A DNA stretch of 64,000 nucleotides from Halorubrum aethiopicum (GTDB taxonomy: Archaea; Halobacteriota; Halobacteria; Halobacteriales; Haloferacaceae). Both the position numbers and the translations under genes were made by a program. A model generated the notes under the pieces. The model made no database searches. It worked only from the letters and a program-made list of their open reading frames with translations, and was not told the origin of the DNA. Position 1 is the stretch's first letter; each line of letters starts with the position of its first letter. Shown here in pieces: positions 10,102-58,111 of the stretch. The stretch is from the NCBI RefSeq assembly GCF_001542905.1, contig NZ_LOAJ01000001.1:2790001-2854000 (forward strand). The letters run 5' to 3'.

Positions 10102-10929
10102 TCACTTGTCTTCGTCGCCGTCGTCCGTTCCGCCGGCGTTCCCGTCGGCTTCGGTACCATCCTCGTTCTCGACGGCGTCCTCGTCGACGACCTCCTCGAT
10201 CCGCTTCTCGACGGTCTCCTCGACGGTGTCGCCTACCGTCTCCTCGACGGTCTCCTCCACGGTTTTCTCGACGGTCTCTTCTACGGTTTCCTCCATCGTC
10301 TCCTCGACCGTCTCCTCTACGGTTTCCTCGACGGTTCCCTCGACGGTCTCCTCGACGGTCTCACCGACCTGCTTTTCGACGGTCTCACCGACCTGCTTTT
10401 CGACGGTCTCACCGACCTGCTTTTCGACGGTCTCACCGACTTGCTCTTCGACGGTCTTTTCCACGGTCTCCTCGACCGTCTCGCCTACCGTCTCCTCGAC
10501 GGTGCGCTCGACGTCCTCCGAGACCCTCTCGACGGTTTCCTCGACGTCCTTCGTCACCTCGCCGACCTTCTCTTCTACCGTCTTCTCGACGTCCTCCGAG
10601 ACCTTGCCGACGCTCTCGTCGACCGCCTCCTCGACCTCGTCGGCGCGGGGCCGACGGTCGACGCGATCGTTCACCTCCTCGAGCCGTTCGATGACCGCGT
10701 CGACCTCGGCCCGCAGCGTCTCCTCGACGTTCTCCGTGACCTCCTCCGTCATCCACTCGGGATCGAACCGGGCCATCTTCCAGAAGACGTGGATGGCGTA
10801 GGAGACGAGCACGCCGAGCCCGAAGGCGATGCCGACCCGGTTGCCGACGACCGAGAAGAGGACGACGGCGACGAATATCATGAGGCCGTACGCCAGATCG
10901 ACGACGAAATCGACCCGGTTGGGGTTCAT
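10102..10929 (-). CDS. Membrane-anchored VEET-repeat coiled-coil protein
   Basis: The 275-residue protein has two close hydrophobic segments near residues 8-45 (VDLAYGLMIFVAVVLFSVV and GIAFGLGVLVSYAIHVFW). An acidic helical linker follows, then about 160 residues of near-perfect four-residue repeats of the type VEET, VEKT, VGET and VEKQ, and an acidic tail ending in DDGDEDK. The valine every fourth residue is unlike a plain heptad and resembles the longer-period coiled coils of surface or scaffold proteins. The repeat is also present in DNA (four 24-base units at 10353-10448), so it has grown by duplication. The cytoplasmic side is likely for the repeat. Function unknown. Confidence 0.7.
   Translation of the reverse strand: MNPNRVDFVVDLAYGLMIFVAVVLFSVVGNRVGIAFGLGVLVSYAIHVFWKMARFDPEWMTEEVTENVEETLRAEVDAVIERLEEVNDRVDRRPRADEVEEAVDESVGKVSEDVEKTVEEKVGEVTKDVEETVERVSEDVERTVEETVGETVEETVEKTVEEQVGETVEKQVGETVEKQVGETVEKQVGETVEETVEGTVEETVEETVEETMEETVEETVEKTVEETVEETVGDTVEETVEKRIEEVVDEDAVENEDGTEADGNAGGTDDGDEDK
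10353..10448 (-). repeat. 24-bp tandem repeat inside the VEET-repeat gene
   Basis: Four consecutive 24-base units start at 10353, 10377, 10401 and 10425. The first three are identical and the last has a few changes. Each encodes eight residues (VEKQVGET), so gain or loss of units would keep the frame. Confidence 0.85.
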
Positions 10930-11071: not shown

Positions 11072-12091
11072 TCAACGCGGGGACGCCGACGACTCCCGGG
11101 ACTCGAGGACTCGCTCCGTCGACTCGTCGACCTCGACCAGGTGACAGAGGGGGTTTCCGGGGTAGACGACGGGGTTCTCGAGGACGCCGATCAACAGCCC
11201 GGTGAAGGGCGCTTTCACGCCGACGGCGTCCTCCTTGAACGGGTTGGTGATCGTCGCGATCCGCTCGCCCTCCCGAACCAGCGAGCCGCTCTCGTAGTGG
11301 GTGTCGACGATGCCGCCGGAGTCGGCGCGGAGCCACGTCTTCTCTCCGGATCCCGCGACCACCGTGCGCCAGCCGGGCCAGCGGACGGACTCCGTCTCCA
11401 GCATTCCGTACTCCGCGAACGCCGACCGGACGCCGGCGAGCGCGTCGTCGATGAGGTGCCGCTGGAACCGGTGGGCCTCGCCCATCTCGACGGTGACCGT
11501 CGGGATCCCGTCCGCGGTCGCCTCCCCGCGGAGGGTTCCGCTCGGACCGTCGCTGTCGATTATCACGCTCGAGCCGAACGCCATCGCGAGGCGGTACACC
11601 CCCTCGTCGGTCATGTCGCCGCGGGCGTGGAGCATGTTCGTGCGTCCACGCGTCGAGGTGTGGAAGTCGATCCCGAAGTCGCACGGCTCGATGAAGTTCG
11701 AGTAGATCCGGTGGGCCATCCGCTTCGAGCTCGTCGACCCCGGCTTCCCCGGGAACGACCGGTTCAGGTCCCGGTCGTAGACGGGGAGGTACCGCTGTTG
11801 GGCGAGGAAGCCGGGCACGTTGAGCACGGGCAGACAGACGAGCGTGCCCCGGAGGTCAGAGAGGTCCCACTCGTGGGCGACCTCCCGGACGACCTCGATC
11901 CCGTTGAGCTCGTCGCCGTGCGAGGCCGCGGAGAGGAACGCGGTCGGGCCGTCGCGCTCGCCGTTGACGATCGTCACCGGGATGCGGACGGGGTCGCCGA
12001 GGTACGTCTCGCTGATACCGTAACGGATGTTCTGCGTCTCGCCGGGCGGGACCGCGCCGCCGTTGTACGTGAACGCCCGGTCGTTTCCCAT
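11072..12091 (-). CDS. Succinylglutamate desuccinylase / aspartoacylase family zinc hydrolase
   Basis: A 339-residue M14-type deacylase. The zinc ligands are seen as H58-x2-E61 in SHGDELNG and H144 in IDFHTSTRG. The substrate-binding DRDLNRSFPG follows the first motif, and VTVEMGEAHRF probably carries the catalytic Glu. The C-terminal third (GSLVREGERIATITNPF) looks like a small beta-barrel add-on seen in many archaeal members. Family enzymes remove N-acyl groups from acidic amino acids. It is divergently transcribed from the RimK-RimB fusion gene 120 bases away, and desuccinylase homologues neighbour rimK in many genomes, so an N-acyl- or glutamyl-peptide substrate is plausible. Confidence 0.85.
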   Translation of the reverse strand: MGNDRAFTYNGGAVPPGETQNIRYGISETYLGDPVRIPVTIVNGERDGPTAFLSAASHGDELNGIEVVREVAHEWDLSDLRGTLVCLPVLNVPGFLAQQRYLPVYDRDLNRSFPGKPGSTSSKRMAHRIYSNFIEPCDFGIDFHTSTRGRTNMLHARGDMTDEGVYRLAMAFGSSVIIDSDGPSGTLRGEATADGIPTVTVEMGEAHRFQRHLIDDALAGVRSAFAEYGMLETESVRWPGWRTVVAGSGEKTWLRADSGGIVDTHYESGSLVREGERIATITNPFKEDAVGVKAPFTGLLIGVLENPVVYPGNPLCHLVEVDESTERVLESRESSASPR

Positions 12092-51100: not shown

Positions 51101-52360
51101 TCAGCAGCCGCCGGCGCTACACGGAACCGTAATGTCGCCGTCGATGATTCCCTGCTTGCTCTCCTCGAGGTTCTGGGTGACGACGTCGGGGAGCTGGTCG
51201 CCGACGGTGTCGCCGAGGACGACCTTGACGGCGTCCTCCTCGAGACCGAGCACGTTCGCGCCCTGAACCGCCGACCAGTTATCCTGGACGACGGCCTCGG
51301 CGACCTCGTAGGTCCCCTCGTTGATGTACTTCACCGCCGACCCCATGATCACGTCGCTGTAGTCGGGGAGCGTCACGGACTGGTCCGCGTCGACCCCGAC
51401 GGCGAAGCGGTTCGCGTCCTGTGCGGCCTGGAAGACGCCCTGCCCGGCCGCGGCGGCGGCGTGGTAGACGATGTCCGCGCCCGCGTCGTACTGCGACGTG
51501 GCGATGTTGTTGGCCGTCTGGGTGTCGGTGTAGTTGCCGATGTACCCGACCCGGACCTCCATCTCGTCGTCGACCCACTGTGCGCCCGCTCGGTAGGCCC
51601 GCTCGAAGGCGTTGATGAGCGACCCGTCGACGCCGCCGACGAAGCCGATCACCTTGTCGTCGGGAGTGAGCGTGTTCCCCTCGTGGGAGAGTTCGCGCGT
51701 GGTCATCGTCGCCGCCAGGACGCCCGCCTGGAAGGACATCTCGTGGTTCGCCCACGTGTACCCCGCGACGTTCGGCTGATCGACGGAGGCGTTGATCAGC
51801 ATCCAGTTCTGATCGGGGTACTCCTCGGCGTTCGTCTGGAGCGCCTGCGTGTGGTTGTAGCTGACGAGGACGATGAGGTCGTAGTCCGGGTCGCCGCTCT
51901 CGGCCAGCTGCGACTGGACGGTCTGATAGTTCGACTGGTTGGTCTCCTCGACCTGCTGTATCTCGATATCGTACTCCTCGGCGGCCGACTCCAGGCCCTG
52001 GAGCGCCAGGTCGTTGAACGCCTGATCGCCGAACCCGGCCGGACTGGAGACGATGGCGACGTTGGTCGTCCCACCGGAGCCGTCCGACCCTCCCGAGTCG
52101 GATTCGGAGTTCGTATCGGATCCCGAGCCGGAGTCGGAATCCGAGTCAGAGTCGGAATCCGAGTCAGAGTCGGAATCGGACCCGGAATCAGAATCCGACC
52201 CGGATCCGGAGCCCCCGTCGTCGGTCAAACATCCAGCCAGCCCGGCCACGCCGACGAGCCCCGCCCCCGTCCTCAGGACGTCCCGTCGCCGCGGAACCCC
52301 GTCGCTCGTCTCGCCCGTCGTGTCGGCCTCAGACCTTTCGCGTGTATTCGTATCGACCAT
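51101..52360 (-). CDS. BMP-family nucleoside-binding lipoprotein
   Basis: A 419-residue Tat lipoprotein and first gene of the uptake operon. The N-terminus has RRRDVLRTGAGLVGVAGLAG-C (twin arginine and lipobox). A linker of about 40 residues made almost only of Ser, Asp and Gly follows (SGSDSDSGSDSDSDSDSDSD). The binding domain is of the PnrA/BmpA/Med type: NVAIVSSPAGFGDQAFNDLA, SYNHTQALQTNAEEYPDQNW, KVIGFVGGVDGSLINAFERA and the ligand-site AVGVDADQSVTLPDYSDVIM. Such proteins bind purine or pyrimidine nucleosides. The ATG at 52360 fits the TATA box at 52395-52400; the ORF extends upstream without family sequence. Confidence 0.92.
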   Translation of the reverse strand: MVDTNTRERSEADTTGETSDGVPRRRDVLRTGAGLVGVAGLAGCLTDDGGSGSGSDSDSGSDSDSDSDSDSDSDSDSGSGSDTNSESDSGGSDGSGGTTNVAIVSSPAGFGDQAFNDLALQGLESAAEEYDIEIQQVEETNQSNYQTVQSQLAESGDPDYDLIVLVSYNHTQALQTNAEEYPDQNWMLINASVDQPNVAGYTWANHEMSFQAGVLAATMTTRELSHEGNTLTPDDKVIGFVGGVDGSLINAFERAYRAGAQWVDDEMEVRVGYIGNYTDTQTANNIATSQYDAGADIVYHAAAAAGQGVFQAAQDANRFAVGVDADQSVTLPDYSDVIMGSAVKYINEGTYEVAEAVVQDNWSAVQGANVLGLEEDAVKVVLGDTVGDQLPDVVTQNLEESKQGIIDGDITVPCSAGGC

Positions 52361-52375
52361 GATCGTTTTCCGACT

Positions 52376-52391
52376 TACTCTCTTTCGAGTA
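52376..52391 (-). promoter_or_regulatory. TrmB-type operator TACT-N7-GAGTA at the nucleoside-operon promoter
   Basis: TACTCTCTTTCGAGTA matches the Halobacterium TrmB recognition motif without mismatch and is nearly palindromic (TACTC-N6-GAGTA). It lies between the TATA box (52395-52400) and the start codon (52360), a position where TrmB is reported to repress. A trmB gene is present at 36514. The site is seen directly; the binding protein is inferred. Confidence 0.6.
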
Positions 52392-52394
52392 CCA

Positions 52395-52400
52395 TTATAA
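52395..52400 (-). promoter_or_regulatory. TATA box of the nucleoside uptake operon
   Basis: TTATAA on the minus strand lies 35-40 bases before the lipoprotein ATG and predicts transcription start near 52370, within or next to the TACT-N7-GAGTA site. Confidence 0.55.
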
Positions 52401-52682
52401 GCGTTGGCCATGATTACTGATACGATCGGTCCTGGACGGAACGTGTGAACTACTTCTTTCTCACAGATTTCGGGCATCATCCGTCGGCTGAGGGCGATAC
52501 GTTGGCATTTAGCACGGACTCCGACGCGCCACACGCACCCGTGATGGTTATTACACGAAACGTTACACGAACCCACAGAGCGGTTCACGTTCCCGTCGGG
52601 ACGTACCGTTCGGCCGAACGTTTCGCGACCGACGCGGCGTTCGCGGCGCTCTCGGAACGGTCCCACCTCTAGGGGGCGATGC
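52401..52682. other. Upstream region of the nucleoside operon with short repeats
   Basis: This 282-base stretch lies between the promoter and the metallo-hydrolase gene stop. It holds two arms TGTGA (52444-52448) and TCACA (52461-52465), a possible activator site about 45-65 bases upstream of the TATA box. It also has two tandem 12-base near-copies of TTACACGAAACG at 52551-52574. An ORF of 75 codons across it lacks haloarchaeal codon bias in its first half and is not called. Confidence 0.4.
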
Positions 52683-57935: not shown

Positions 57936-57962
57936 GGCGGGCGGATCGGGGAACCGACGGCG

Positions 57963-58022
57963 ACGCGGCCGCTGAACGCCGGCCGGAGACGACGCGGCGA
58001 CTGAACGCCGGCCGGAGACGAC
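57963..58022 (+). repeat. 29-bp tandem repeat upstream of the sensor kinase
   Basis: CTGAACGCCGGCCGGAGACG begins at 57972 and again at 58001, with similar flanks (GACGCGGC), a period of 29 bases. The repeat contains CCGGCCGG palindromes. It lies in the 176-base gap between the GshA-like gene and the histidine-kinase gene. No function is evident. Confidence 0.6.
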
Positions 58023-58111
58023 ACGACGACCGAACCCCGAAGGGGACGGCGGGACCGCGCGGTCGGCCCACTTAAGTATCGAACGGGAGAGGATCCGGTA
58101 GAGACGATCAC

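Follow-up and report, generated by a model that had tools for sequence, protein, structure and literature searches.

The gene at positions 10102 to 10929 of the window, i.e. the whole stretch of 64,000 nucleotides from Halorubrum aethiopicum that was analysed, belongs to a widespread family of haloarchaeal proteins in which an array of four-residue repeats (tetrads) is held in register by selection while its length is free, and whose genes are linked to genes for PiT phosphate transporters in most lineages. We tentatively propose that a membrane hairpin, to which a length-adjustable, self-associating helical array would be attached, forms the core of these proteins and acts as an accessory subunit that regulates or stabilises one subtype of PiT. 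The features of the locus are as follows:

10102..10929, minus strand: whole coding sequence (ATG at 10929, stop at 10102, 275 aa)
10747..10929, minus strand: putative two-helix membrane hairpin and conserved juxtamembrane WKMARFDPEWMT, residues 1-61
10525..10746, minus strand: hendecad-like helical segment, V/I/L spaced by either 4 or 3 residues, residues 62-135 (predicted from the spacings and a modelled helix at 57-90)
10645..10695, minus strand: VIERLEEVNDRVDRRPR motif, residues 79-95 (recognized from the sequences of relatives)
10189..10524, minus strand: strict tetrad array, 28 tetrads V-[EG]-[EK]-[TQ], residues 136-247
10357..10440, minus strand: recent expansion of a 24-base unit, VGET-VEKQ in three identical copies followed by VGET, residues 164-191 (from the codon table)
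10105..10188, minus strand: acidic low-complexity C-terminal tail, residues 248-275
11072..12091, minus strand: AstE/AspA-type gene (PF24827), upstream neighbour on the same strand, given as context and not claimed as a partner

Protein layout and distribution of the family

The protein starts with two hydrophobic helices (residues 3-54) that are separated by a short turn, and the second helix continues into WKMARFDPEWMT (residues 50-61). The AlphaFold2 model of the window protein places helices at residues 3-28 and 30-54 with a pLDDT of ~80, which fits a membrane hairpin and agrees with the membrane anchor proposed in the first-pass annotation, a short reading of the same DNA. Judged by the positive-inside rule, the N- and C-terminal ends of the hairpin are predicted to face the cytoplasm. 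Seventeen positions in the hairpin region are invariant among 27 diverse rows (D7, D11, Y14, G15, A35, G39, H47, W50, K51, M52, R54, F55, D56, P57, W59, M60 and T61).

In residues 62-135, V/I/L/M are mostly 3 or 4 residues apart, in 4-4-3-like steps. The strict array follows (residues 136-247, ~112 residues), in which V recurs at an exact spacing of four residues 28 times (once as M and once as I), while the residues in between are mostly E or G, E or K, and T or Q. A single repeat of ~160 residues had previously been described here; this description merged two regimes, of which the first contains three-residue steps and only the second is strict. Identity at a lag of four within residues 55-275 amounts to 91 matches, compared to 35.5 +/- 4.9 after shuffling (10000 shuffles, maximum 54). 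The earlier observation of an in-frame 24-base DNA repeat holds as well: the codons of VGET-VEKQ are the same in three consecutive 24-base units and in a fourth VGET, while the remaining tetrads have diverged in their codons. The three identical units are a recent expansion. The array is single-copy in its own genome, as a 10-fold GT-N10 pattern searched on both strands hit only the target gene and one simple repeat on another contig. On the opposite strand, an open frame of 231 codons with SSTV repeats (window positions 10106-10801, plus strand) is a mirror of the repeat and of the codon make-up, and nothing about it indicates a gene.

A profile of the N-terminal 64 residues (E <= 1e-4) detected the family in 274 of the 391 genomes of the class (~70%) and in 67 of 84 genera, with E-values down to 1e-38; when the full protein was used, 74 of 97 relatives yielded a homologue. 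The named genomes closest to that of the window are mostly from Halorubrum species, H. halodurans heading the list. No match outside the order was obtained in a phylum-wide draw of 294 genomes, all 40 matches being located inside the order, and none of the viral contigs searched contained a match. In Halorubrum, 45 of 46 genomes possess exactly one copy and one possesses none. These copies represent distinct ancient types at distinct loci (the AstE/AspA locus, the BrkB locus and others), as if they were substituting for one another.

Comparison of the whole protein with Pfam and NCBIfam yielded seven and twelve matches, respectively, every one of them below the curated cut-off. The hairpin alone likewise gave only matches below every cut-off in the profile libraries, and matches to PHROGs profiles were weak. 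These weak library matches (Pfam, NCBIfam, PHROGs) fall mostly on the low-complexity tail. The names GvpQ, ZorA, DUF445 and EcsC were rejected, as all of these matches are below cut-off and outside the hairpin. Searching the PDB by sequence returned weak matches only (the tail of ribosomal L17, MreB and a designed protein), and no match was found with the hairpin profile. The plasmid copies inspected are annotated as 'hypothetical protein' or carry no annotation, and a search of open-licence papers turned up nothing on the family or on long tetrad arrays. The excerpt of PMC10869688 concerning Haloferax cell-shape factors offered no testable resemblance to the family, and these factors were set aside. 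Taken together, this is a well-defined and widespread, yet unnamed and unannotated family of haloarchaeal membrane proteins.

Gene neighbourhood and a candidate role beside PiT

Neighbours were counted at 100 loci comprising 97 distinct targets; L060, L091 and L160 had been left out beforehand, the first as a chance match from a bacterium, the second for standing at the end of a contig and the third as a placeholder of 10 bases. A PiT gene adjoins 45 of the 58 targets outside Halorubrum types A and B, in 31 cases downstream on the same strand and in 14 cases upstream and divergent. The PiT neighbour cluster was verified as PF01384 (representative E 6e-40). In contrast, PiT is near none of the 32 targets of Halorubrum type B and none of the 7 of type A, the window's own type (L036, which bears a type A label in the tree through a loose text rule, is not of type A). 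Conserved PiT linkage is thus a property of the loci outside these two types. In a second set of 40 further genomes, PiT is located within 1.5 kb of the hairpin match in at least 27, with 18 and 9 cases in the same two arrangements. PiT is present in all 40 of these genomes, which were chosen for having the target, and with 204 PiT genes (5.1 per genome) we estimate that chance would link ~0.2 of the 40. Three plasmid records annotate the next gene as 'inorganic phosphate transporter', and in one of them 50 bases separate target and PiT. PiT-linked rows occur in both halves of the 124-row tree, which has few columns and many unresolved forks; we therefore take the link to be probably ancient and its absence from Halorubrum to be a loss. 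A gene for a universal stress protein is often nearby also.

At the window locus the target follows the AstE/AspA-type gene, runs towards a convergent gene for a small membrane protein and has no PiT beside it. The AstE/AspA neighbour is found at 7 of 7 Halorubrum type A (clade A) loci and at no other locus examined. A general link to the window neighbours (AstE/AspA, TatD, DUF2150) was accordingly rejected, being confined to the type A loci. The genome of H. aethiopicum contains three PiT genes, all located elsewhere and without the target beside them.

Short members of the family, of 114 to 182 residues and with fewer than 10 tetrads, also exist. Within the set of 97 targets, 11 of 14 short members are linked to PiT (one of them being L061, whose array contains an unsequenced gap, so that its 7 tetrads are a minimum), compared to 34 of 83 with arrays. 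Since short members are PiT-linked too, it is the hairpin core rather than the array that follows PiT. In L061 (Halogranum rubrum), a run of N stands in the array and the frame is shifted behind it; repeats of this kind break assemblies and gene calls.

From these data we infer a model, which we regard as tentative. The core, consisting of the two-helix membrane hairpin and a cytoplasmic juxtamembrane motif K-M-x-R-F-D-P-x-W-M-T, would contact PiT and serve one PiT subtype as an accessory subunit, with a regulatory or a stabilising function. The acidic, valine-striped helical array would project from the hairpin into the cytoplasm as a stalk or bundle, and self-association along its valine stripe would cluster or space the complex. 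As a self-association element the array may be optional, its length being adjustable in evolution while the four-residue register stays fixed. As the Halorubrum gene is not beside PiT, a re-targeted role or a role with PiT in trans has to be assumed for the window member; its PiT role is an extrapolation from relatives, and it was probably unlinked secondarily. The 117 of 391 class genomes that lack the family speak against a role with PiT, as do the PiT genes of the own genome that stand without the target. If correct, the model would provide the first proposal of a function, as an accessory part of PiT, for an unannotated protein of ~70% of the sampled haloarchaeal genomes.

PiT genes linked to the target mostly align to positions ~1-332 of PF01384, while most other PiT paralogues align up to position 350. 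The alignment end at ~332 suggests a PiT subtype. One PiT gene of this kind is present in the own genome (G000:C1:275761-276633), again with no target beside it.

Bacterial DUF47/PhoU-like regulators are also encoded beside PiT. The family resembles them in this adjacency and in its possible regulatory role but differs in architecture, as they are soluble helical domains rather than a hairpin with a repeat array. No PhoU-type profile appeared among the Pfam matches up to E 0.1, and no sequence relation to DUF47/PhoU was found.

Alternatively, the protein could be a structural scaffold at the membrane, i.e. a filament or bundle below it, whose tetrads would assemble either with a steep right-handed twist or as an antiparallel bundle; PiT would then be linked through co-regulation, with no functional tie. 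We consider this rather unlikely, even though long arrays dominate (at least 10 tetrads in 83 of the 97 distinct targets) and persist in Halorubrum without PiT linkage. The AlphaFold2 model of a relative with 66 tetrads would also suit a scaffold, since its array is split into three helices (110-200, 208-271 and 277-333; pLDDT ~65-80 along much of these helices), the arrangement of a bundle folded back on itself. However, the pTM of this model is 0.39, and a Foldseek comparison of this model and that of the window protein with the PDB and viral models revealed no match at E <= 0.001, the best match of the 66-tetrad model being a designed three-helix bundle (E 0.47). Moreover, linkage that is kept across the tree in two orientations argues for more than coincidence, and short members lacking a long array persist. 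We therefore continue to favour an accessory subunit of PiT.

Register, length and geometry of the array

Absence of the repeat from all relatives, a possibility raised in the first-pass annotation, is not what we observed: among 124 distinct relatives, 104 carry a strict run of at least 10 tetrads and 39 a run of at least 30, the longest strict run having a median of 23 and a maximum of 66 tetrads. The suspicion of variable length proved right, as arrays range from 4 to 66 tetrads across species, although short-read assemblies may miscount them. In the tails of these relatives, 4072 of 4544 spacings between V/I/L/M are exactly 4 and 281 are 3, while spacings of 5 or 2 are almost missing (17/4544). 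Where 10 or more tetrads follow one another, V occupies position 1 in 98% and position 3 holds E in 66% or K in 19%, and 184 different tetrads occur.

In 332 ordered close pairs, with positions classed by one sequence of each pair only, residue change per aligned codon was 0.029 at the first tetrad position and 0.134-0.172 at the other three, i.e. the valine changes ~5x less than neighbouring array residues. Synonymous change was similar at all four positions (0.25-0.32), and within the window gene the valine codons vary almost only at the third base. Of 211 gaps inside the arrays of close pairs, 190 span a multiple of 4 residues, compared to 12 of 78 gaps in the acidic tail next to them; because alignment of a period-4 repeat itself tends to produce gaps of this size, we use the result as supporting evidence and no more. 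The four-residue register is thus under selection, while length is free.

The VIERLEEVNDRVDRRPR segment, with its VDRRPR motif, precedes the array in the window protein and in Halorubrum type A, follows it in Halohasta (L045, L047) and stands at the end of several short members. The array has thus expanded on either side of the same element.

Single alpha-helix (ER/K) domains are charged helical repeats with a four-residue rhythm. The array differs from them by its few basic residues, ~25% valine and net negative charge (mean -0.26 per residue), and in place of alternating acidic and basic residues at i and i+4 with few aliphatics it has V at nearly every position 1.

If a straight helix has 3.63 residues per turn, a stripe that recurs every 4.0 residues drifts by 9.2 degrees per residue, corresponding to the 40 degrees per tetrad calculated before and to a full turn in ~39 residues. 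The computed pitch of the tetrad stripe is ~59 A, as compared to 147 A for heptads. The 'gently twisted' helix once envisaged does not survive this calculation, since a pitch of ~59 A is steeper than that of any coiled coil in the excerpt of PMC4786415. That excerpt expects the upper limit of coiled-coil periods at ~3.9, gives 3.8 as the most extreme local period known and places 4.0 outside the accessible range, in keeping with the earlier remark that a strict period of four is unusual for a coiled coil. Consequently, the arrays differ from ordinary coiled coils, or else the limit does not apply generally. The canonical range (mean 3.33 to ~3.9) does not include the array; residues 62-135 come nearer. 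The excerpt of PMC9369452 contributed no information on four-residue periods.

Right-handed coiled coils with hendecad (11/3), pentadecad (15/4) or 19/5 repeats, as covered by the excerpt of PMC4786415, resemble the array in that an aliphatic period above 3.63 results in a right-handed stripe, and hendecads share the 4-4-3 steps of residues 62-135. However, the array keeps to exactly 4.0 for up to 264 residues, beyond the ~3.9 limit given there. Transmembrane helix dimers of the small-xxx-small (GxxxG-like) type are comparable in their four-residue contact spacing and right-handed helix pair, but according to the excerpt of PMC13207528 they are short membrane helices with small residues, whereas the array is long, acidic, soluble and built on valine.

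The AlphaFold2 monomer of the window protein has a mean pLDDT of 65.5, combining a hairpin of fair confidence with long helices of low confidence, and pLDDT drops to ~40 at residues 180-200 of the array. Judged by the models, the array is likely helical, although its helix propensity is mediocre (0.53 compared to 0.38 kcal/mol for GCN4-p1). It is conceivable, if improbable, that the arrays constitute a new class of fibrous helical protein with a period of exactly four, forming a steep right-handed superhelix (pitch ~59 A) or a bundle that absorbs the drift of 40 degrees per tetrad otherwise. Molar KCl would stabilise such a fold, and its length would be tuned by steps of 12 bases. If so, this would be a natural coiled-coil-like fold beyond the periods regarded as accessible. 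The hydrophobic periods that helices can support are predicted by coiled-coil theory, and 4.0 is not among them; a family with hundreds of exactly spaced residues is a natural test, for which arrays of 4 to 66 tetrads provide a ready-made length series.

A disordered, sticky polyanionic brush, in which the valines would act as weak hydrophobic stickers in 4 M KCl and bring about condensation or crowding at the membrane, appears unlikely. Arrays rich in V and T with low helix propensity, net negative charge and freely variable length would be compatible with a brush, as would the pLDDT values that are often below 60 in the models. Yet disordered stickers need no exact register, while spacings of 5 or 2 are almost missing and the valine is strongly kept; furthermore, AlphaFold assigns helix rather than coil. 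A further alternative, that slippage of the DNA and unequal exchange, in units of 12 and 24 bases, are the main source of the strict period and that the protein tolerates this period rather than needs it, is more improbable still: identical 24-base units in the window and array gaps in multiples of four residues, as a 12-base unit predicts and as alignment also favours, are outweighed by the low amino-acid change of the valine at like synonymous change, by its codons varying almost only at the third base, by the rarity of such gaps in the acidic tail and by a single consensus maintained across an order.

Elsewhere in the window, positions 51101-52666 (minus strand) encode an ordinary lipoprotein-like protein that is probably substrate-binding and whose lipobox is followed by a long linker of SD/SG repeats, and ~2.7 copies of a 29-base direct repeat are located at 57961-58039, apparently between genes.
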